Positions 11,190-24,455 of a stretch of 64,000 bases of DNA are shown one piece after another; positions within the stretch are counted from its first letter, which is position 1; each line of letters opens with the position of its first letter. Under the pieces are notes generated by a model. It ran no database searches. It was given only the letters and a program-made list of their open reading frames with translations, and was not told where the DNA came from. The position numbers and the translations under genes are program-made. The stretch covers positions 220,513-284,512 of the forward strand of contig JABYQR010000014.1 in assembly GCA_022592445.1 (NCBI GenBank), given 5' to 3'. The stretch comes from Cytidiella melzeri (taxonomy: Eukaryota > Basidiomycota > Agaricomycetes > Polyporales > Irpicaceae).

Positions 11190-13882
11190 ATCCAGACCGA
11201 TGTGTTTGCCTTCATCCCAGCTAAGATCGTATGTAGATGGATAGATCGTGCGAAGGAAAGCAGGGTCGGTCTGGGCATTGAATTCCTGAAAGTGCGAACG
11301 GAGATCCACAAAGAGTGAAGCTTTGATGACCCGGGGCGCTCCGGGGTTTGCTTTGTAGAAGTTGTCAATTGCTTCTTGACTATTCTCGAGGTTTTCTATT
11401 GGCTCCCAGCTATTGTGTCCGTCTGATTACCCTTCCCATTTGACTAGGAATTGCAGTTTCTTCCATCATCCGTGTAGCCTGCTGTCTAGCACCTTTTTGA
11501 CGATGTACTGTTCTTCTCCTTCTATGACAATAGGATCAGGAGGTGGAGGTACGTCTTTGCCGTTGTCGTGCCAGGGACTTAGATGGTTGATATGGAAGAC
11601 AGGGTGGATTCGGAGATAGCTGGGTAGATCGAGTTTGTAGTCAAGATCACCGATGCGTTCAATGACTTTGTACAGGCCGAGTTGTTGACGACCGAGTTTA
11701 GGGGTAGCCTGGTAGATCTGAACGTTTTTAGCATTCAGCCAGACCATGTTGCCCACCTGGAAGACGCGTGGAGACCGCTTCTCAGATTCGTAGAGTTGCT
11801 TCATCTTTTCTTTGCTTAGACGAAGGGCTGCTTCGGTCTCTTTGCGTACTCGAGCCATGTTGTCAAGGCGTTCATCGAGCGACGGGATATTGCTTTGCTT
11901 GCGGACTGGTATGGTGAAGTCGGGGCAATATTCGTAGATGACCTCAAACGGTGTTTGTGAGTTACCCGCATGTACTCGCGAGTTGAGTGCAAACTCAGCT
12001 GCCGGCAGATGATCGACCCAGTCGCCTTGTCGTTGCAGACAGAATAGACGCAGGTACTGTTTGATATCCTGGTTTTTGCGTTCGACTTTGCCATTTCCTT
12101 GCGGATGATAGGCAGTCATAAAACCAGTCTCTATGCCTAAGCGGTGATAGAGCGCACGCATGAAGCACGCTGCAAACTGGGGTCCTCAGTCAGAGAACAC
12201 CTTCTTGGGAATGCCGTGAAGTCGGAATACTTCTTTGTAATGTAGATCGGCAATCCCCTCAGCGTTAACCTTAGTGGTGGTAGGGATGATGTGCGTTTGA
12301 TCGGAGTAATGGTTGACGTAGACCGCGATCGAATCAAATCCCTTAGAAGGTGGTAGCTGAGTGATGAGATCTACTCCGATGTGATCCCAAGGTCCGGCCG
12401 GAGTTTCCTGAGGCTGTAGTACTGCTTTAGGGTGCGGAGCTGACTTATAGTGTTGACAGCAATCACAGCCTAGTATGTAAGTCTCTACAAAGGCATTCAT
12501 CTTTGGCCACCAATAGTGTTGTGAGACTAGCTCTATGGTGCCGTGTTTGCCCGGATGACCAGCCGCGGGTGTGTCATGGCAAGATTTGACAATTTCGTAA
12601 CGGAGCTCTTTGTTATTAGGGATATAGAGTTTTCCCTTGTAATAGATGAGTCCGTCACTCTCTTCCCATTCGAGTAAACCGCCGACAAGTTTGCAAGGAC
12701 CCTTCTTTCGAAGGATAGCGAGAGCTTGTGCGACTTCTGCTTCTTGCTCCGTGCATTCTCAGATCTTTGATTCGAGTGGAGAAGCAGTAGCAAGTGCACT
12801 GGTAGCGAGGATCTGGAAGTGTTCCGGTTTTAGTACCATCTGGTCCTTGTTGTCTTCTTTGTCCGTGACAGCGTGGGAGTGAAGACGAGAGAGGGGATCA
12901 GCGTGGTACTGCCAGGCTTGTGTACCAACACAAAGTCAAAATCAGCCAAGAGTAGTGACCAACGTGCTTGACGTCGAGTGAGGTGTTGTGCAGTTTTCCA
13001 GTACTGCAGGTTCGCGTGATCTGTCCAGATCTCAAACGGTTCCTTGAACCCCTCAAGGTAGTGGCGCCAATCTTTGAGAGCCTCGGTGATGGCTAACATC
13101 TCCCGATCAAAGATTTCGTAGTTACGCTCAGCTTCAGTCATAGATGCGGATTGGTAGGCGATAGGGTGGTAGAATCCATCTTTCTTCGATTTCTGGGAGA
13201 TGATTCCACCGGTTGCATAGCCTGAAGCATCGACTTCTAGACGTGTAGGGAGTTCAGGGTCCCAGACTGCCAAGATAGGCTTAGTGGTAAAGGCCTTCTT
13301 TAGCAGCGTGAAGGCAGTCTCTTGTGCTGGACCCCAGACAAATGGTACGTCCTTCTTAGTAAGGTCGTGTAGGGGCCGTGCGTGCTTTGAGAAGTCTTGG
13401 ATGAAGCGTCGGTAGAAGTTGGCAAACCCTATGAACCCTCTAACTTCTTTGAGATTCTTGGGTGTGGGCCATGTAGAAACTGCTTGGACTTTGACAGGGT
13501 CTATAGCTACTTCGCCGGCGCGAATGATCAATCCGAGGTACTCGATCTCAGATTTCTCAAACTTGCACTTTTCCGGACGAAGATACAGATTGTGTTGCTG
13601 AAGTCGCTCGAGGACTTCATGTACAACCTTGCGGTGCTCTGTCAGGTTGTTGCTCCAGATCAAGATATCATCTAGATAGACAGCCACCTTGCCCTCGGCT
13701 ACGAGGTCAGTGAAGATGTTGTCCATCAGAGCTTGGAAGGTAGCAGATGAGTTCGTGAGACTGAAGAACATGACTTTGGGTTTGAAAAGTCCTCGGTTGG
13801 TAACAAAAGCCGCTTTGTACTCGTCTCCTTCCTTGATGCAAATATTATGATATCCCCAACGAACATTGAACGTAGTGAAGAT
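11190..13882 (-). pseudogene. D pol C-terminal part: RT, RNase H, integrase, chromodomain (broken)
   Basis: Continues D RT after the C insertion (FNVRWGYHNICIKEGDEYKA), with [10 protein letters not shown] near 13670, RNase H (RLEVDASGYATGGI) and an integrase zinc region (LGCDCCQHYKSAP). The integrase core follows, with VDLITQLPP, a catalytic block ending FSD and KVERKNQ. The last block is a chromodomain (LVKWEG, SWEPIENL). Lesions include a frameshift after VHKPGSTT near 12900, TGA in place of Arg after FSD near 12188, TGA after DSRLHG near 11466, and a TAA in the chromodomain. Most stops fit C-to-T changes at CGA. Confidence 0.85.
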
Positions 13883-14397
13883 TGTCAAGAACACAACCAA
13901 ACTCTATGAAGAGGGAGGAAGTGACGACGGGGGAAAAGGAACAACAAGCGGACTCGCGTGGACGATGACGACAAGGAAGATGATGATGACGATGGAGAGA
14001 CAACGACGAGGGAGCAGCTAACGATGAGCTAAAGACCAGGATATATTAGCAAAGTGATGAGACTTGTACAAGGTGAACGTCACCTAAAGACCAGGAGGTA
14101 GAATCTGAGGTCTTTAGGGAGCTACAGGGTGGGTTTATATACATCTCAGACAAGGACCCCTGGTACCGGGTCTGTACTCCTAACACTGCTGTGGGAACGT
14201 ATGGTGTGCTATGGTGCGATGTTCTACAATGTTCCACAATGTTCCAGCACCTTCTATGATCATGTGACCGGTCTGTCACATGCACTTGATCACATGCAGT
14301 AGCCATGTACCATCGATAAGATAAGATAAGGAAATTGAAAAGATAGGATAACGAAAATAAAAGGAAAAGAAAGGAAAAAGTGTGCATGGTCGTGACA
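13883..14397 (-). repeat. Family C 3' LTR, 515 bp
   Basis: Plus strand begins TGTCAAGA and ends CGTGACA. It differs from the 5' LTR at about nine positions, eight of them packed into the first 75 bases. It includes a TTC ladder (14222-14254) and a TATA box near 14134-14141. Confidence 0.93.
14222..14254 (-). promoter_or_regulatory. 10-bp TTC ladder in family C U3
   Basis: TTC triplets at 14222, 14232, 14242 and 14252 share the spacing and flanking bases of the family A block at 5050-5082, including the common core GTTCCACAATGTTCCAG. This resembles a step-type heat shock element. Copies lie at the same place in the C 5' LTR and in the F LTR. Confidence 0.5.
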
Positions 14398-14410
14398 TTA
14401 CCCCCCTCCT
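14398..14410 (-). promoter_or_regulatory. Family C polypurine tract
   Basis: Element-sense AGGAGGGGGGTAA abuts the 3' LTR. It overlaps the last codons of pol. Confidence 0.85.
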
Positions 14411-17400
14411 AAAGGCCTTTTCTCCGGAAGGCAGGAGTTGAGTCTTTTCCGTCTTCCCACAAGGATACGCGTCGTAGAGTTTCGGAAGGTAGTTTCTCAA
14501 AATTCTCGTTGATTGGTCGAAAATTCATCGCCAAGAATAGAGATGCAGCGATTGGTCGTGGAGCTCCTGGGTGCCGTCTGTGGAAGTCTTTAACCGCTTC
14601 ATCAGCATGAGTAACGTTGGTTGCGGGTTCCCAGGAGTTTTCTGAATCTGGGTATCCTTTCCACTTGACGCGATACTGGAATTCCTTCTTTCGACCAAAG
14701 ATCCTTGAATCAAGAATCTGTTCTACCTCGTACTCCTCTTCTTCGTCTACCACAATTGGTTCAGGTTCAGGAAATTCCCGATTAGGGACCAAACTTGCCG
14801 TCTTGGCTGGTCGCAACCTATCCACATGGAACACCGGGTGGCGCTTGTCCCGGATGGTAAGCTTAACCCGGTAGTTCAAATCCCCAATCTTTTCTAAGAT
14901 CTCATAGGGACCATCTCGTTTTGGTGCTAGCTTTGCCACCGGCTGTTCCTTTGGATGCTTCTCGCGTTCCACATAAACCTTGTCACCAACTTTAAGCTGC
15001 GGGGCCTTTGTAACTCCGTGATCGTAGAATCGTTTCATGCGTTCCGCCGTGAGCTGTAGTGCAGCTTTGGCGTCTTCTTGGGCTTCTCGGAGCGCTCGAA
15101 GGCGTTCGTCTGCTGCGGGAACGTTTGATACTGGATTCAAAGGCACCTGGAATTCCGGTAGATACCCATAGATCAGTTCAAAGGGAGCCTTCCCGGTGGA
15201 CGAGTGTACGCGGCTATTAAGCGCAAACTCCGCAATTGGCAACCAGTCTACCCAGTCATCCTGTCTGAAGGAGCAGAACACTCTGAGATACTGTTCTATT
15301 TCTTGATTCATACGTTCGGTTTTACCATCTGTCTGAGGATGGTACGCAGTGGACATAGACGACTTTACTCCGAGTGCATCGTAGATAGCACGGAGAAACT
15401 TGGACGCAAATACCGATCCGCGGTCTGAGATCATCTGGCGAGGTACCCCATGGAGTCGAAACACGTTTGCGATATAGTCCTGCACGTGTTCGGGAGTTTT
15501 CATGCTTTCTCGTGATGGATAGCAATGCACCTGCGCTGTTGTCCGATCAACTACGACTGTGATAGAATCGTATCCTTTACATGGCGGTAATTTGACAATG
15601 AAGTCCGTGGTAACGCTTTCCCATGGGGCATTGGGCGGATCTAGTGGATTGAGTGGACCACGTGGTGGGGCGGGGTATGTCTTGGTTCTTTGACAGGTGT
15701 CACACGTGTCTACATAGTCATTGACAAAGCGTGTCATGCTGGGCCACCAGTAGTTCCGAGATAGTAACTCCAGTGTTTTGTACCTGCCCGGATGTCCGGC
15801 AGCAGGTAAGTCATGGTGTCTCTGAACTAGTTCCTTTCGGATCTCGTCATCTTTAGGGACGTAAACTTTTCCCCGGAACAACAACAGTCCATTCTCCACG
15901 TTCCACTCTTCGAGTCCGCGGCTAAGAAGACGAGGTCCGAGTTTCTTGACTTTGGCAAGTGCTTCTGCCACCTCGGTCTCTCGAAGAGAACATTCACGGA
16001 TACGTTTCAACAAGTCTCTGTCTGGTTGTACACTAGCTTGTCCACGTTGAGAAGCAGCAGCTCGGAACACCTCAGGTGCTAAGACTACTCGTGACAGATT
16101 GTCTTCTTCATCTTTGACCTCGTGTTGACCCAATCGTGACATGGAATCCGACTTTCCCATAGATTTCCCGGGTTTTGGGATGATCTCAAAGTTGAAACGT
16201 GAGAGAAATAACGACCAACGTGCTTGACGGCGTGTCAAGTTACGAGCTGTCTTCCAGTACTCGAGGTTCTTGTGGTCAGAGAAGATAGGGAATTTCTCTG
16301 GTAGCCCTTCCAAGTAATGACGCCAGTCTTTAAGGGCTCGTACAATTGCCATGAGTTCTCGGTCGTAGATCTCATAGTTTCGTTCAGTCTCAGTCATGCC
16401 TTCAGACCGATAGGCTACTGGATGCCACGTGCCGTCTTCGGCTTGTTGTTCCAATACCCCTCCCATTGCATACCCGGATGCATCCGTTTCCAAACGTGTG
16501 GGTCTATCAAAACTCCACATTGCCAACACCGGCGCTTCCACAAATCGTCGGCGGAGTTCATCAAACGCCGACTGTTCTTCAGGGCCCCATTTCCAAGTAA
16601 CCTTGCCCGTGAGACGGTCTAAGGGCTTACATATCTTTCCGAAGTCTTTGATGAATCTCCGGTAGAAGTTTGCAAACCCACGGAATCGGCGAATATCGGA
16701 GACATTCTGCGGTACAGGCCACTCAGCCACTGCCTTTACTTTGACAGGGTCCATGCGTAACTGATTGTGACCAATGATAACACCAAGATATTCTGTCTCT
16801 GAACGCTCAAATTCGCATTTCTCCGGTTTAAGAAACAGATCATGTTGTCTGAGCCGTCTCAGAACTTCATGTACCACCTCGCGGTGCTCGGAGATCTCCT
16901 TGGAATAGATGAGGATATCATCTAGGTAGACGGTGACCTTGCCCTCAGCAATAAGATCAGCAAAGATGTCGTTCATCATGTTCTGGAATGTGGCCGGGGA
17001 ATTGGTAAGACCAAAGAACATGACCGTGGGTTCAAACAGTCCTCGGTTGGTGACAAATGCAGCCTTGTGTTCATCGCCTTCCTTGATGCGGACATTATTG
17101 TATCCCCATCTGACGTCCAGCTTAGTGAAGAACTTAGCCCCTCTTAGTCTATCCATGAGTTCAGAAATTAATGGTAATGGATATCTGTTCTTGATGGTGA
17201 CCTCGTTCAACTTTCGATAGTCCTGAACCGGGCGTAACTTCCCATCCTTTTTCTTGACAAAGAAGAAGGGTGACGCCATTGGGGACTTCGACGGTCGAAT
17301 GTACCCTTTCTCTAGATTCTCTTGGATAAACTTATCAAGCTCTTCTTGCTCAGGGTGTGATAGCGGGTAAACCTTTGCGTGGAATCCTTTTGCTTCCGGA

Positions 17401-18362
17401 ATCAACTCAATTGCATGGTCGTACGACTTGTGTTCTGGAAGTCGTTGAGATTCCGTTTCAGAGAAAATGTGAGCATGTCGTCGATATTGCTCAGGCACCA
17501 TCTCCTCAAAGGTTTTCACCGGTTTCACCCGGTTCTCAACCTCCGCTAGTTCACTAGAATACGTATACCCTGCCAGAGTGAACAAACGTTCGCCTTCTTG
17601 TACCATGGGTGTCGGACGTGTGCGTACAATGCGTCGGGGAGTTCCTTTTCCACCGAGCTGAGTAGTGGCCTGTGCCTGTAACTTCGGCGATTCGGCCCCA
17701 TCCAAACTTCCTGAACCTTCCGTGGTCTCTTCGAGGTCTTCTTCGGTTTCCTCCGTATCCACCGGCAAGTACGGAAGTTGTTCCACAACTTTCCGTAATC
17801 CCGGGGTCCTCTTCTTCCGTTTAGGTTCAGCTGTTCTCTTAGCTGCAACCTCCTTTGCTTCCTCAACCCTTTCTCTGGGTTTACATGCATCAGGACATCC
17901 ATCCATCCTGATGATACCTTCGTACCAATCAATGGTGGGGTTGTGATACCGCAACCAATCAATTCCTATGATCACGTCTTCTGGCCCAATATCAGTGACC
18001 GTGAAAATGGTCCTTTCCTCGTGGTCTCCTATCCTCATATTGAGAATGGCAACCTCATCAATAGCCCCGTCTCGATTTGGGGTCCCGTCTATGTTGTACA
18101 CCGGAATGGGTTGTTTCAACTTCCGGGTCCTAATACGATGCTCTCGAACAAACCGTTTATGAATGAATAGTGTCGAGGCTCCACTATCAATCATAGCTGC
18201 GACTTCTTTAGATCTCCGCACTCCTGAGACTGTGATAGGTACGTGAAAATGTTCGGATTCAGAACCAGTCTCTAGTACATCAGATGTGAGTATGGAAAAT
18301 CTATTAGTACATGGTAAACGTGGGGCGCGTGCTTGCGCAGCTCGAATCACGGCCCGAATCAA
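14409..18362 (-). CDS. Element C Pol polyprotein (Tf2-like), intact, 1317 codons
   Basis: Uninterrupted Ty3/gypsy Pol. Residue landmarks: protease DSGA at 59-62; RT at about 330-540 with VYLDD at 478-482; RNase H at about 622-745 with TDAS and SDHKNLEYW; integrase zinc region HH...H...CDTC at about 849-890; integrase core with D920 (TTDFI), D980 (ISDRG) and E1016 (KTERMNQ); chromodomain at about 1205-1262 (YEVEQILDSR ... VKWKGYPDSENSWEP). It would process the polyprotein, copy the RNA and insert the DNA, with the chromodomain probably reading histone marks. There is no ATG at its start. The frame opens at TTG, 1 nt back from the gag stop, so it is most likely made as Gag-Pol by -1 frameshifting. 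Confidence 0.93.
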   Translation of the reverse strand: MIRAVIRAAQARAPRLPCTNRFSILTSDVLETGSESEHFHVPITVSGVRRSKEVAAMIDSGASTLFIHKRFVREHRIRTRKLKQPIPVYNIDGTPNRDGAIDEVAILNMRIGDHEERTIFTVTDIGPEDVIIGIDWLRYHNPTIDWYEGIIRMDGCPDACKPRERVEEAKEVAAKRTAEPKRKKRTPGLRKVVEQLPYLPVDTEETEEDLEETTEGSGSLDGAESPKLQAQATTQLGGKGTPRRIVRTRPTPMVQEGERLFTLAGYTYSSELAEVENRVKPVKTFEEMVPEQYRRHAHIFSETESQRLPEHKSYDHAIELIPEAKGFHAKVYPLSHPEQEELDKFIQENLEKGYIRPSKSPMASPFFFVKKKDGKLRPVQDYRKLNEVTIKNRYPLPLISELMDRLRGAKFFTKLDVRWGYNNVRIKEGDEHKAAFVTNRGLFEPTVMFFGLTNSPATFQNMMNDIFADLIAEGKVTVYLDDILIYSKEISEHREVVHEVLRRLRQHDLFLKPEKCEFERSETEYLGVIIGHNQLRMDPVKVKAVAEWPVPQNVSDIRRFRGFANFYRRFIKDFGKICKPLDRLTGKVTWKWGPEEQSAFDELRRRFVEAPVLAMWSFDRPTRLETDASGYAMGGVLEQQAEDGTWHPVAYRSEGMTETERNYEIYDRELMAIVRALKDWRHYLEGLPEKFPIFSDHKNLEYWKTARNLTRRQARWSLFLSRFNFEIIPKPGKSMGKSDSMSRLGQHEVKDEEDNLSRVVLAPEVFRAAASQRGQASVQPDRDLLKRIRECSLRETEVAEALAKVKKLGPRLLSRGLEEWNVENGLLLFRGKVYVPKDDEIRKELVQRHHDLPAAGHPGRYKTLELLSRNYWWPSMTRFVNDYVDTCDTCQRTKTYPAPPRGPLNPLDPPNAPWESVTTDFIVKLPPCKGYDSITVVVDRTTAQVHCYPSRESMKTPEHVQDYIANVFRLHGVPRQMISDRGSVFASKFLRAIYDALGVKSSMSTAYHPQTDGKTERMNQEIEQYLRVFCSFRQDDWVDWLPIAEFALNSRVHSSTGKAPFELIYGYLPEFQVPLNPVSNVPAADERLRALREAQEDAKAALQLTAERMKRFYDHGVTKAPQLKVGDKVYVEREKHPKEQPVAKLAPKRDGPYEILEKIGDLNYRVKLTIRDKRHPVFHVDRLRPAKTASLVPNREFPEPEPIVVDEEEEYEVEQILDSRIFGRKKEFQYRVKWKGYPDSENSWEPATNVTHADEAVKDFHRRHPGAPRPIAASLFLAMNFRPINENFEKLPSETLRRVSLWEDGKDSTPAFRRKGL

Positions 18363-18368
18363 AAACCC
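18359..18368 (-). promoter_or_regulatory. Probable -1 ribosomal frameshift site, gag to pol of C
   Basis: In gag frame the sequence reads G GGT TTT TGA: a heptamer GGGTTTT of the X XXY YYZ type, followed at once by the gag stop (18361-18359). Slipping back one base enters the open pol frame at TTG ATT CGG. No ATG opens pol. Slippage itself is inferred. Confidence 0.7.
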
Positions 18369-19419
18369 TCCTCAAGTCTCTTCTTGAGGTCGGCGTTCTC
18401 CGCCCTCAACTTCTCCAGTTCTCCTAGCACGGCTTTGAGTGTTACTTCCGACACTCCCGACGAGCTCGACGCTTCTTCCCTCTCAGGCTTCTTTTCTTCG
18501 GCCCGAGAAGAAGATACCTCTCCAGTGGTAGCAGCCACACGAGTCCCTCGAGGTGGTGGGCGTGGGACTGCCGGTTTGGTGCACGTGCGTGCGATGTGAC
18601 TGGGGTCGGTGGTAATCTCTTGACAGTTGTAACACCGCCGACCTTGTTGCATTTTGGAGGCATCGACCTCCATAGGAACCGGACCGTTGGAAGGACGGGG
18701 AACCGGAGTAAACCTGGGCTGAGACTGGGTGGGTCTCGACGTAGTTGACGGGGGAACAGACGGAGTTTTCTTTTCCGTGTTTCCCTGATGCGGGCATATG
18801 CGGCTGCCATTTTCAGGGACCTATCAATCCAGCCTTGGTAATTGGCTGGAGGTGCTTCGGCCGTTGCCAGCCGCCCGTAGATGTATTCAGGGAGACCTTT
18901 TATGAACCGGATCTCCTTGTCTTTGTCGCTCAACCCGTTGATGCGACCCACGTATGACTGGAAGTCAGTGACGTATGTACCGACATCCCGCGCGTTCTTT
19001 TCCTTCTTTTCAGCTCCACAGAGCTTCTCCAGTTCACGAATGGCAGTATCCTCGGGCGTTGCGTCGCCGAAGTACTTTTTGAGTTCGGTTTTGAACTTAG
19101 CCCACGTGTCAAGATTGGCCGGCAAATCACCGTTGTGGTCAGCCATGTGATCTGTAACTGGTATTGCCCATTGGGCAGCTTTCTCCGACAGACGGTAGAT
19201 GGCCGTCAGGACCTTGGTTTTCTCGTCCGTGATACTGGCAGTCACCCAGTAAGCCTCACACTGGGACAGAAAACGTTCCAGGTCACGACCATGTTCGCCC
19301 TTGTATCTATCAGGCTTAGAATCATTGTTGTTGACCGTAACCTGCGGTCTGGGCATTGCTTGCGCGACTGCAGCTACAATGGCTGCAACCAGGGCGGGAT
19401 CAACCGCGGGTGTTGTCAT
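18359..19419 (-). pseudogene. Element C gag (one frameshift)
   Basis: Gag begins at ATG 19419 (MTTPAVDPALVAAIVAAVAQAM), the first AUG after the transcript start. It has a retrotransposon-Gag core (DRYKGEHGRDLERFLSQCEAYW, then DLPANLDTWAKFKTELKKYF) and a zinc knuckle CYNCQEITTDPSHIARTC. A short C-terminal coiled coil (KAVLGELEKLRAENADLKKRLEE) ends at the GGGTTTT TGA recoding site. One base is missing in an A-rich run near 18770, so the N-terminal part (19419-18772) and the knuckle part (18673-18359) lie in different frames. This is probably the single event that silenced an otherwise intact element. Confidence 0.85.
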
Positions 19420-19770
19420 TGTGGTGGGAGTGGGGGAAACAGTTTCAGGGGTAGTGATGGGATCAGGAATAATGGGGGTAACGTCTGGTGGAGCCGGTGG
19501 GTTTTCCGGTACAACTAAACTGGTATTGACCTCGACTTCTTCAGGAACTCCGACAATCAACGGTATTTGACTGTTATCGCAAGCTACGTATCCACGGTAT
19601 CGTTGTCCTTCTCTGAAATGACGGGATACTACAAACTTTTGATTTCGGTTCGGACACGGCTGTTGTTCGCAGATTTCAATATATGCGTGGTCCTCTTCGT
19701 TATCGTGATAATCCTGAAGATCGTCGGGATCGAAAACGTGGAAATGATTATCGCACTCAATGATTGCTAT
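19420..19770 (-). other. AUG-less open frame linking ORF0 to gag in C, cysteine-rich
   Basis: Directly after the ORF0 stop pair TAG TAG (19776-19771) the same frame stays open for 117 codons into the gag ATG and contains no methionine. It reads IIECDNHFHVFD, then YIEICEQQPCPNRN. Element D has a matching stretch (NCIHFFD, then FYECDEQPCPNQ), so the protein sequence is conserved between families. It could be a Gag N-terminal zinc-binding extension made by readthrough, frameshifting or non-AUG initiation. None of these is shown by the sequence alone. Confidence 0.55.
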
Positions 19771-19773
19771 CTA

Positions 19774-20598
19774 CTACAAAGGAAGTTTTTCAAAATATCC
19801 TCCGTCTGCTACAAATGCAACTCGACTCGTGACCTCTGTCAACCTCTTGCGTAATTGCGTGAAGTTGATCTGCCCTACTGACTGCAAACCCCAGTTTAGT
19901 GCTTTGAGCTGGGCAGGCGTGCGCGTGGAGAGTACTTCCTCCGTATGCTCTGTGAGGTACAGAAGCTTGTCGTTGAGTAGCAGGACTGACTTGACCTGTG
20001 AATCGTTGCGGTCACGGGTAAGCTCGATCAGGATCTTGAGGCGTCTGGTGGTGGCCTCGATCTTCGGCTTGAGAATGCCGACTTGATCCTTGATAGAGAA
20101 CTTATGGAAATCGAGTGTCACCGGTTTCTGTGCGTCCGGTCGAGGTGGTGCGGGTGCCCGAGAGATGCGATCCTTGAGAGACGGTTTCTCAATACGGTCG
20201 GCGAGAGTTTGCGCACGTTCAGTGCGTGTGCGTTCCTTGATAGACTCGTTGTCACGAGCAAACTTTTCGTGGTCGAAGTGGGGGAGTCTAGTACCGAGAG
20301 GATGGTAGTGAGGACGGCGTGAGACGTACGAGACGATGGTTTCAAGGTCCTTCTCTGTGTAGAGATGGGGACGACCTTGTTTGCGCAGTTCTTGTCGAGC
20401 CTCAAAGAAAGACTCGGGTACGTTACGACGGATGCGTACGTCTTTCGGCACTACAACCACGACGTGAGGATGAAGATCAAGGGTCCGGGCCAATACAACG
20501 TACTGGTAAACCGGGGGGACTAAACTTTTAAAAACTTTGGGGAAAGGAAAATGTGCGGTTGCGCGACGTCCAGGCGAGCGTACGGAGATTCTACCTAA
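19774..20598 (-). CDS. Element C ORF0, accessory protein upstream of gag, no AUG
   Basis: A frame of about 275 codons, open from the LTR border to TAG TAG, with no methionine codon at all. Function is unknown. Visible blocks: VPKDVRIRRNVPESFFEA, GRPHLYTEKDLETIVSYVSRRP, an alanine/proline linker, LDFHKFSIKDQVGILKPKIEA, RRLKILIEL, and the C-terminal ALNWGLQSVGQINFTQL ending in GGYFEKLPL. The same blocks in the same order occur in the D ORF0, and more weakly in the A ORF0, so the frame is under protein-level constraint. The start cannot be fixed: translation would need a non-AUG codon. No membrane segment or catalytic motif is visible. Confidence 0.65.
   Translation of the reverse strand, partial: LGRISVRSPGRRATAHFPFPKVFKSLVPPVYQYVVLARTLDLHPHVVVVVPKDVRIRRNVPESFFEARQELRKQGRPHLYTEKDLETIVSYVSRRPHYHPLGTRLPHFDHEKFARDNESIKERTRTERAQTLADRIEKPSLKDRISRAPAPPRPDAQKPVTLDFHKFSIKDQVGILKPKIEATTRRLKILIELTRDRNDSQVKSVLLLNDKLLYLTEHTEEVLSTRTPAQLKALNWGLQSVGQINFTQLRKRLTEVTSRVAFVADGGYFEKLPL
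20586..20596 (-). promoter_or_regulatory. Element C self-priming primer binding site
   Basis: Element-sense AGGTAGAATCT begins 2 nt inside the 5' LTR border. It is the exact complement of AGATTCTACCT at 20822-20812 in the LTR, the likely transcript 5' end, about 27 bp after the TATA box at 20850-20857. Confidence 0.85.
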
Positions 20599-21113
20599 TG
20601 TCAAGAACACAACCAAACTCTATGAAGAGCGAGGAAGTGACGACAGGGATGGAGGAACGACGAGCGGACTCGCGTGGACGATGACGACAAGGAAGATGAT
20701 GATGATGATGGAGAGACAACGACGAGGGAGCAGCTAACGATGAGCTAAAGACCAGGATATATTAGCAAAGTGATGAGACTTGTACAAGGTGAACGTCACC
20801 TAAAGACCAGGAGGTAGAATCTGAGGTCTTTAGGGAGCTACAGGGTGGGTTTATATACATCTCAGACAAGGACCCCTGGTACCGGGTCTGTACTCCTAAC
20901 ACTGCTGTGGGAACGTATGGTGTGCTATGGTGCGATGTTCTACAATGTTCCACAATGTTCCAGCACCTTCTATGATCATGTGACCGGTCTGTCACATGCA
21001 CTTGATCACATGCAGTAGCCATGTACCATCGATAAGATAAGATAAGGAAATTGAAAAGATAGGATAACGAAAATAAAAGGAAAAGAAAGGAAAAAGTGTG
21101 CATGGTCGTGACA
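20599..21113 (-). repeat. Family C 5' LTR, 515 bp
   Basis: Same length and termini as the 3' LTR. It contains the TATA box (20850-20857), the start motif (20812-20823) and the TTC ladder near 20938-20970. From the start motif to the LTR border there is no AUG in element sense. Confidence 0.93.
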
Positions 21114-22180
21114 AAGATCTTTGCACCCTTGAGCTTGTTTATAATGTTGGTAGCAAGCGGTAGTGGGTAACAATTCTTTACAGTGATGTCGTTGAGTTTA
21201 CAATAGTCCTGAATAAGACGGAGTTTGTTATCCTTCTTTTTGATGAAGAAGACTGGAGAAGCCATTGGAGACTTAGAAGGCGTAATGTAACCTTTTGATA
21301 GGTTCTCCTGAATGAACTTGTCAAGCTCGGCTTGTTTGTTCAGGGGCATAGGGTAAACTTTCGATTTGATAGTCTCAGGAGCGTCTGGTTTGAGATCAAT
21401 CGAATGGTCCCAGGGCTGATGCTGGGGTAGCAATTAGACTCTTCCTCAGAGAAGACTTTAGCGTGTTTGTGGTACTCTGATGGAACAATGTCTTCGAAGG
21501 AGTGCTGAGCTTTAGCTTTGTTTGCTTTGGCAGCAAGCTTGGTAGAGTAGGTGAAGCCGGCCATACACCAGACTTCGTCAGTGGTGTCTTGGATAATCCC
21601 GGCTTTGACCCACTGTCTACGTTCTTTGCAATTACCATCAACCTTCTGGAAAGGTTTGTCAGGAGATTCTTCCAAGCCGCTCGGAATTGTTATTTCTCCT
21701 TTGTCCCAGTTGACGGTAGGGTTTACGCGTTTGAGCCATGGTAGCCCAAGAATGACGTCTTCTGGACCCAAGTCCGTGACGAGAAACTCCGCTTTTTCCG
21801 TGTGATCTCCAACTGTGAATGTAAGGTGAACGAAATGTGTTAATCCGCCAGCTTTATTCTTAGTTCCGTCAATGTTATGCAATGAGATAACCCTTTCAAG
21901 CGGGTGCTGAATAATCTTATGCTTCTTGACGAACTGGTGGCTGATGAATAAAGCCGTAGCTCCTGAATCGATCATAGCAGGAACGCAAATGCTTCTATTC
22001 AGACCTTTAACTAGTACATGTACACGGAAATGAGATGATAACCGATCTAGCGACGATATAGTACATGAGGAGATAGTAGACGACGGGCATGGAGTAGACA
22101 TTGTACATGAGGAAGACGAGGCAGAAGACGAGGAGGACGACGAAGGAGGCATGGACAGGGTATCTGGGGAACTTGCAGCT
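21114..22180 (-). pseudogene. D pol N-terminal part: protease and RT start (split by C)
   Basis: Continues from the D gag end in the -1 frame (KRTRDTAAAASS), then a serine-rich stretch and protease (PAMIDSGATALFI), an acidic linker, and RT up to NKLKGAKIF, where element C begins. A frameshift after EEESN near 21435 breaks the frame. Together with 11190-13882 it makes one Pol. Confidence 0.82.
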
Positions 22181-23692: not shown

Positions 23693-24455
23693 CTAGATCA
23701 ACTCAAAGTAGCTATCACTATTGACTACATTAAGTTGTGCTAAAACTCTATCGTAGTTTTTACAAAGCTGCTTGAAGGAAACTTTCCCGATTGCTTTACA
23801 ACCTCAGTCCAAGAGCTGCCACTCGCGATCTGCTGTGACAGGAGCAAGATTGTCGACTCGGTTGAGGAAACGATTGACCTTGTTGACGAGGTGGAGCAGG
23901 GCGCGACGGTGGTCGGGGTTGGCGCAGCTCAGGAGTTCTTCAAGCTCTGTGAGAGCTTGTAGACGAGTACGGACAGCGGTGAGCTTAGGCCTAAAGATGC
24001 CAACGAGATCAACCGGTGACAACTTCTTGAAGTCAATCAACACCGGTTTAGGTGCAGCGGGGGCGGGAGTCGGTGCAGTGAGCTTTGCTAGTCGCTCTGC
24101 AAGGGTGAGCTTGTGGGTTTGTTGCTCAGCTAAGGTGTGGTCACGCTCCTCAGCAGCTCGTTCTCCGTATGCTCGTGCAGAGGCACGGAGTTGGCGATTT
24201 TCCTCGTATGAGGGGACGGTGAGGGTGATGCCTTTAACAGGCGGCTTCTTGGACACGTACTTCGCGACGGTGACCAGGTCCTTGTCAGACCAACGATGAG
24301 GTTGACCACTCTTGCGCTTTTCAGCGAGAGCGTCGAGGAAAGATGGTGGAAGAGACCTCTTGAGCTGAGGCTCAGTGGCAGGGAGGTTTTTAGAAAAACG
24401 GGGGCGTGTGTCCTTAGGCACTAGACAACGCGCAGGGGGTAGAAACGGACGACAT
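23693..24455 (-). pseudogene. Element D ORF0, accessory gene upstream of gag, no AUG
   Basis: Homologue of the C ORF0 with no methionine codon. Blocks: CLVPKDTRPRF, GQPHRWSDKDLVTVAKYVSKKP, LIDFKKLSPVDLVGIFRPKLTA, RTRLQALTELEELL and, at the C-terminus, CKAIGKVSFKQL ending in SYFELI before TAG (23695-23693). A TGA at 23806-23804 stands where C has Trp (ALNWG). The 5' part is cut at 24455 by X1. Upstream codons on the other side of X1 (26321-26437) again resemble C (TLGRDRC, KKFIPV), with a TGA between them. Function is unknown. Confidence 0.65.

Follow-up and report, generated by a model that had tools for sequence, protein, structure and literature searches.

Element C and its transcript start

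The window analyzed here, a 64,000-nt stretch of a Cytidiella melzeri contig, carries on its minus strand (21113 to 13883) a Ty3/Gypsy LTR retrotransposon of the chromovirus class, element C, which appears to have inserted into an element of a second family, D, with the same accessory frame, ORF0 (Table 1). Its LTRs have TG..CA ends and are identical at 506 of 515 positions (98%), and the short target-site duplication ATCTT flanks the element at 21114-21118 and 13878-13882. Pfam matches in pol follow the order PR-RT-RH-INT and include a C-terminal chromodomain (PF00385, E 7.4e-16). The last codons of gag (18359-18373, minus strand) read GAG GAG GGT TTT TGA, and pol is -1 relative to them. This gives a G GGU UUU heptamer that fits the slippery consensus, and -1 frameshifting is probably how pol of element C is produced. 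Near 18800 (minus strand) the window copy seems to have a broken gag frame, with 325 aa from the ATG vs. 353 aa in 24 of 48 copies (a survey whose pattern missed the start in six of the 48); this copy is thus not intact, though its leader is.

Table 1. Features of element C, with positions given in the window
Feature	Position	Strand	Remarks
5' LTR (TGTCA..TGACA)	20599..21113	-	515 bp
Probable TATA box TATATAAA	20850..20857	-	read from sequence
RNA 5' end / self-primer AGATTCTACCT	20812..20822	-	11-mer in 48/48 C copies
Exon 1 of leader	20504..20822	-	last base A (20504) would become the A of the ORF0 AUG; A in 48/48; pN/pS 0.79 in the ORF0 frame
PBS AGGTAGAATCT	20586..20596	-	complementary to RNA 5' end; 46/48 C copies
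53-nt intron GTACGT..CTCAC..TTGTAG (predicted)	20451..20503	-	splice signals in C copies; homologous D intron absent in six copies
ORF0 coding exon (TG of AUG to TAG)	19774..20450	-	225 aa including the M predicted to arise by splicing; pN/pS 0.10; intact in 42/48
Tandem stop TAG TAG after ORF0	19771..19776	-	adjacent stop pair in 48/48 copies
AUG-less N-terminal gag extension, gag frame, with CEQQPCPN	19420..19770	-	pN/pS 0.24 (19770-19540), 0.56 (19539-19420)
gag ATG, the AUG met first on unspliced RNA	19417..19419	-	present in 48/48 C copies
pol open frame (PR-RT-RH-INT-chromodomain)	14409..18371	-	Pfam matches; -1 relative to gag end
3' LTR	13883..14397	-	515 bp

To compare copies, the 49.7-Mb assembly (731 contigs) was searched, with at least 41 matches at the DNA level (40 candidates scored) and at least 142 in a protein search with ORF0. 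After removal of 20 exact duplicates and two loci of short span (L017 and L042), 70 loci yielded 48 distinct family-C copies, drawn from more than 100 C-type places in the genome. The number of C-type LTR/leader ends can be gauged from the PBS 11-mer, which occurs 466 times genome-wide vs. three for its reversed control.

The earlier note on this DNA had predicted a transcript start at 20823, and self-priming provides independent support for it. Specifically, over all 11 nt in the window copy, AGATTCTACCT (20822-20812) and AGGTAGAATCT (20596-20586) are exact reverse complements, the latter lying 2 nt internal to the end of the 5' LTR. The two 11-mers occur together in 46 of the 48 copies, and the pair fixes the start of the element C transcript without promoter guesses. 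Complementarity between RNA 5' end and PBS, found here, characterizes the self-priming elements of the Tf1/sushi type. Family D self-primes too, with ATCTCGACCT at the RNA start and AGGTCGAGAT after the LTR in four copies (L071-L074).

A leader without AUG

The leader (20823-19420, minus strand) is 1404 nt long and, as had been claimed, contains no ATG, the sole trinucleotide that it lacks. Dinucleotide shuffles (n = 1000) gave on average 11.5 ATGs and never fewer than four (maximum 20). A previously stated expectation of about 20 was somewhat high (17.7 from mononucleotide composition, 11.5 from dinucleotides), though the strong deficit itself is real. The surrounding ATG-free run (19420-20860, 1441 nt) is the longest for this trinucleotide on either strand of the window, followed by one of 1134 nt on the plus strand. 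As other trinucleotides are absent over similar lengths elsewhere in the window (TAA for 1656 nt, CGC for 1586, CGA for 1447), a single copy is insufficient on its own, and the stronger evidence comes from across copies.

Among the 48 family-C leaders, 30 contain no ATG despite differing by up to 14% from the window copy, while the remainder hold one (seven copies), two (four), three (three), four (two), five (one) or six (one). Of the 43 ATGs in these 18 copies, 22 lie at sites where ACG is the majority state, and ATG number rises with the number of private mutations (Spearman 0.75, p = 1e-9; median private changes two in ATG-free copies vs. nine in the others). ORF0 is likewise intact in 29 of the 30 ATG-free copies vs. 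13 of the 18 others. The correlation and the ACG-to-ATG sites together suggest that active elements keep their leaders free of AUG, which would return by decay after insertion. These copy counts uphold the proposal of AUG avoidance and support selection as what would keep the leader AUG-free.

ORF0 is a selected protein

The leader also holds ORF0, whose frame runs for 281 codons from stop to stop. Its pN/pS (Nei-Gojobori counts, uncorrected) is 0.10 across the C copies vs. 1.61 and 3.48 in the other two frames, close to the 0.07 obtained for the start of gag, and its protein is 31% identical to that of element D over 240 aligned positions, so that the protein-level conservation claimed for ORF0 holds on both counts. 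The length given for it, about 275 codons without methionine, stands for the open frame only: ~225 codons are coding, and the first ~56, where constraint is weak (see below), are leader and putative intron, open by chance in the window copy. It could be argued that ORF0 is never translated and that what is conserved is an RNA function such as packaging or structure; nucleotide conservation is indeed high around the donor. Selection confined to one frame refutes this, however, protein homologs at 43–57% identity also tell against it, and we give it practically no chance.

Methionine is avoided throughout. Among the 42 copies with an intact ORF0, 37 have no Met after the start and five have one, and every copy ends in adjacent stops (TAGTAG in 43, TAGTAA in three, TAATAG in two). 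The nine homologs at 43–57% identity (P0001-P0008 and P0029) all lack internal Met. Seven show M-P at the predicted ORF0 start, with P0002 and P0007 beginning further in, and eight end near a GYF motif as the ORF0 of C does, with P0008 stopping short. For metagenomic homologs the initial M may be a GTG taken as start by a bacterial gene caller, just as the aligner read the GTG of the window as a start; it would then mark the place rather than an AUG. Named relatives come from Irpex, Cytidiella, Trametopsis, and Postia, which would point to a polypore as host. In two Irpex rosettiformis gene models, P0022 and P0023, the sequence is Met-free from the equivalent of the ORF0 start (positions 47 and 6, aligned by eye) to the gag region (384 and 328). 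Together with the Met-free homologs, this indicates that the AUG purge is older than the copies in this genome.

In these same two gene models a single protein spans ORF0, the gag extension (see below), and Gag, either as a real fusion in that species or as a gene-model artefact. A further alternative is that ORF0 and gag form one polyprotein—through stop readthrough, frameshifting or a second intron—with ORF0 as the N-terminus of a long Gag. The fused models would fit this, the two frames are shared in the window copy, and GTAGGG at 19878, a conserved donor of phase 0, might be joined to an AG at 19757. Yet the adjacent stop pair is kept in 48/48 copies and an extra A shifts the frame in six of the 48, in D the frames are related differently and the corresponding position holds no donor, and constraint extends right up to the ORF0 stop, with homologs ending near the shared GYF motif. 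We therefore regard a polyprotein as very unlikely.

As to what the protein does, sequence and fold searches gave no convincing match, and no family name for this strongly conserved protein was found in the libraries searched. An AF2 model (mean pLDDT 72.6) places a helical bundle at the C-terminus.

A 53-nt intron predicted to build the ORF0 start codon

Immediately upstream of the constrained part of ORF0 lies a candidate intron that resembles a spliceosomal one in its GT..AG ends, donor consensus, branch-like motif and small size, and such short introns are usual in fungi. Its length of 53 nt, its acceptor AG and a CTNAY-type branch-like motif are found in 48/48 C copies, and its donor is GTACGT in 46 and GTACAT in two. 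Every copy has A directly before the intron and TG directly after it, and removal would yield the junction TTTACCA/TGCCGAAAG, i.e., UUUACC-AUG-CCG-AAA-GAC, in which ACC-A/UG-CCG supplies a start codon for ORF0. The leader has only two GTRNGT sites, the second of which (20329) is a GT donor in just 20 of the 48 copies; of its 420 GT..AG pairs spaced 40–120 nt apart, six would build an ATG. Constraint in the ORF0 frame changes at the acceptor, where pN/pS falls from 0.79 (exon 1) and 0.65 (intron) to 0.10. The earlier note had named an intron removing this region as a finding that would tell against its view; the predicted intron takes out 53 nt and not ORF0.

All 48 C copies examined retain the intron. 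The C junction pattern occurs at six genome sites (control: one), none of them in family C, so that no intronless C copy was found. From this retention it follows that the reverse-transcribed template is unspliced. It also bears on an alternative in which splicing is nearly complete and Gag comes from the spliced message, with ribosomes either reinitiating after ORF0 or scanning leakily past its AUG. Strong splice sites would favor such an arrangement, as would the AUG-free state of the stretch between the ORF0 stop and gag. But unspliced RNA must be abundant enough to serve as template in 48 copies, and avoidance of Met is hard to explain if a good AUG always drives ORF0, which makes near-complete splicing unlikely.

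Precise intron loss in family D

Evidence that such an intron is really excised comes from family D, where an intron of the same A/TG design occupies the homologous place. In an alignment of four further D copies (L071-L074), L071 is without a segment that has exact GT..AG ends and is present in the other three. Thus GACGA followed by the segment (GTACGT...TTGTCTAG) and TGCCTAAG in those copies corresponds to GACGATGCCTAAG in L071, where the junction GACGA/TGCC opens ORF0 with ATG CCT AAG (M-P-K). The D junction was found at 16 sites genome-wide (control: five), six of which are D elements lacking exactly the intron (L071, L076-L079, and L081), with other flanks at the remaining ten. The precise absence in six copies points to reverse-transcribed spliced RNA, and hence to real excision of the homologous intron; splicing in C itself we infer from the conserved signals.

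The losses did not happen once. L071 is 99.2% identical to the intron-bearing L072, and the intron-bearing L073 shares 97.6% identity with L077 and 98.8% with L078. The intronless copies fall into four sequence groups (L071/L081, L077/L078, L076, and L079); exon 2 of the first two groups is 97.8–99.1% identical to that of their own intron-bearing neighbor, while the two neighbors are only 82% alike. At least two losses are therefore independent, and sequence grouping suggests that there were probably four. The intronless copies are few and scattered in a small D sample (ten copies including that of the window, five of them short pieces), which fits elements unable to express gag in cis. Between RNA start and gag ATG, D leaders contain no ATG in L073 and L074, one in L072, and only the junction ATG in L071. 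The D copy of the window (23696-24421, minus strand) is truncated shortly before ORF0; other sequence, including an ATG at 24455, stands in place of its donor side, and a codon that is TGG in L071-L074 is TGA in its ORF0.

These losses bear on the earlier proposal that ORF0 must start at a non-AUG codon, which is probably wrong: its AUG most likely arises by removal of the 53-nt intron, and the intronless D copies attest splicing at the homologous place. In the proposed scheme, ORF0 would start on the unspliced RNA (e.g., at GUG 20451-20449 or at a UUG in the intron) and most ribosomes would scan on to gag. The leader is AUG-free as that scheme expects, an in-frame GTG before PK is conserved in both C and D, and there is precedent in rice tungro bacilliform virus (RTBV). 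However, this GTG is exactly the acceptor G plus TG, the six precise losses prove splicing in D that creates an AUG at the same place, and there is little protein constraint upstream of the acceptor. Taken together, we judge a non-AUG start of ORF0 quite unlikely.

An AUG-less extension of gag

Between the ORF0 stop and the gag ATG, 117 codons lie in the gag frame without an AUG. The first two thirds are under clear constraint (pN/pS 0.24 vs. 1.00 and 1.03 in the other frames), and the rest less so (0.56 vs. 0.81 and 0.88). In 26 of the 30 ATG-free C copies the frame stays open as far as the ORF0 stop, with whole-codon differences in a proline-rich linker. Its QPCP(N/E) motif recurs in element D and in P0012, P0022, P0023, P0024, and P0026; the D copies L071-L074 have lost that part, and different parts of the extension are lost among copies.

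The simplest reading of 19770-19420 is an extended Gag, with AUU at 19761 (A at -3, G at +4) as a candidate start read from its context. Non-AUG initiation, while probably wrong for ORF0, may apply to the gag extension. Murine leukemia virus offers a model in Glyco-Gag, an N-terminal Gag extension from a non-AUG codon (PMC5778647), with the difference that the start codon of the C extension is only a candidate.

A predicted intron switch in one leader

Selection on ORF0 at the protein level, and the position of gag behind an AUG-free leader, support the view that one leader serves two protein programmes, as had been proposed. We consider it very likely, from the sequence comparisons above, that the intron acts as a switch that adds one AUG: where retained, the RNA would serve as genome and Gag-Pol message, and where excised, as message for ORF0. 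Specifically, the spliceosomal intron of the leader would sometimes be retained, and scanning ribosomes would then meet no AUG for 1.4 kb before that of gag at 19419. Excision would join the final A of exon 1 to the UG of exon 2, creating the ORF0 AUG with A at -3 (ACC AUG), and the spliced RNA would yield the 225-residue protein and should be closed to gag. ORF0 would have been cleared of internal Met and out-of-frame AUG because ribosomes scan across it on the unspliced RNA; passage without translation is the best explanation for the avoidance of Met. We infer this division of labor between two RNAs, and likewise any regulatory role of ORF0. The switch does not explain translation of the gag extension. 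A broader reading would combine the intron as AUG switch, an ORF0 that feeds back on unspliced RNA in the manner of Rev or CERV, and an extended Gag from a non-AUG codon, in an old design common to C, D, and their relatives in other polypore fungi; as a whole, we think this doubtful and offer it tentatively.

Several components have counterparts. In RTBV, a coding stretch of 900 nt is cleared of AUG for leaky scanning and one protein comes from spliced RNA (PMC5902531). Element C shares with RTBV and the badnaviruses an AUG-free coding region between cap and a distal gag/pol-type ORF, but ORF I of RTBV is initiated at an AUU of the unspliced RNA, whereas the ORF0 AUG of C would exist only on spliced RNA. 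In Cer1 of C. elegans, the accessory protein CERV is made from spliced RNA and exports unspliced RNA (PMC10309623). As with CERV and Rev of complex retroviruses, ORF0 would be an accessory protein of spliced RNA, with unspliced RNA as genome and Gag message; CERV, unlike ORF0, is described as large and without known relatives, and a splicing-built AUG does not figure in that description (PMC10309623). That ORF0 might act in RNA export is guesswork from analogy, for which CERV is the nearest hint. BARE of barley likewise maintains spliced and unspliced RNA pools with different roles (PMC3735527), though splicing there favors Gag, while in element C it would favor the extra protein and close gag. 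SpIREs of human L1, in which a few genomic copies show precise loss of a 5' intron and are called likely dead ends (PMC5860796), resemble the intronless D copies as a mark of reverse-transcribed spliced RNA; L1 splicing, however, falls within the 5' UTR and lowers promoter activity, whereas here it creates a start codon.

AUG clearing for leaky scanning and spliced accessory genes are thus known. Searches of the open-licence literature found neither their combination with a tiny intron that supplies the AUG nor any retroelement with an accessory AUG built by splicing. ORF0 itself may have been sighted earlier, as an "additional open reading frame" is named in the Gypsy figure of PMC2864245; PMC3248453 contains none of the terms "additional ORF," "third ORF," "intron," and "ORF0."

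In retroelements one transcript must double as genome and as mRNA for several proteins. For element C that choice appears to be reduced to a single AUG added by a 53-nt intron, with the upstream coding region purged to keep the way to gag free on unspliced RNA. The case shows that a bacterial gene caller can mistake an acceptor G plus TG for a GTG start, and it exposes a strongly conserved accessory protein in high-copy fungal elements. The leader design also provides a natural means of reporting intron retention in fungi.
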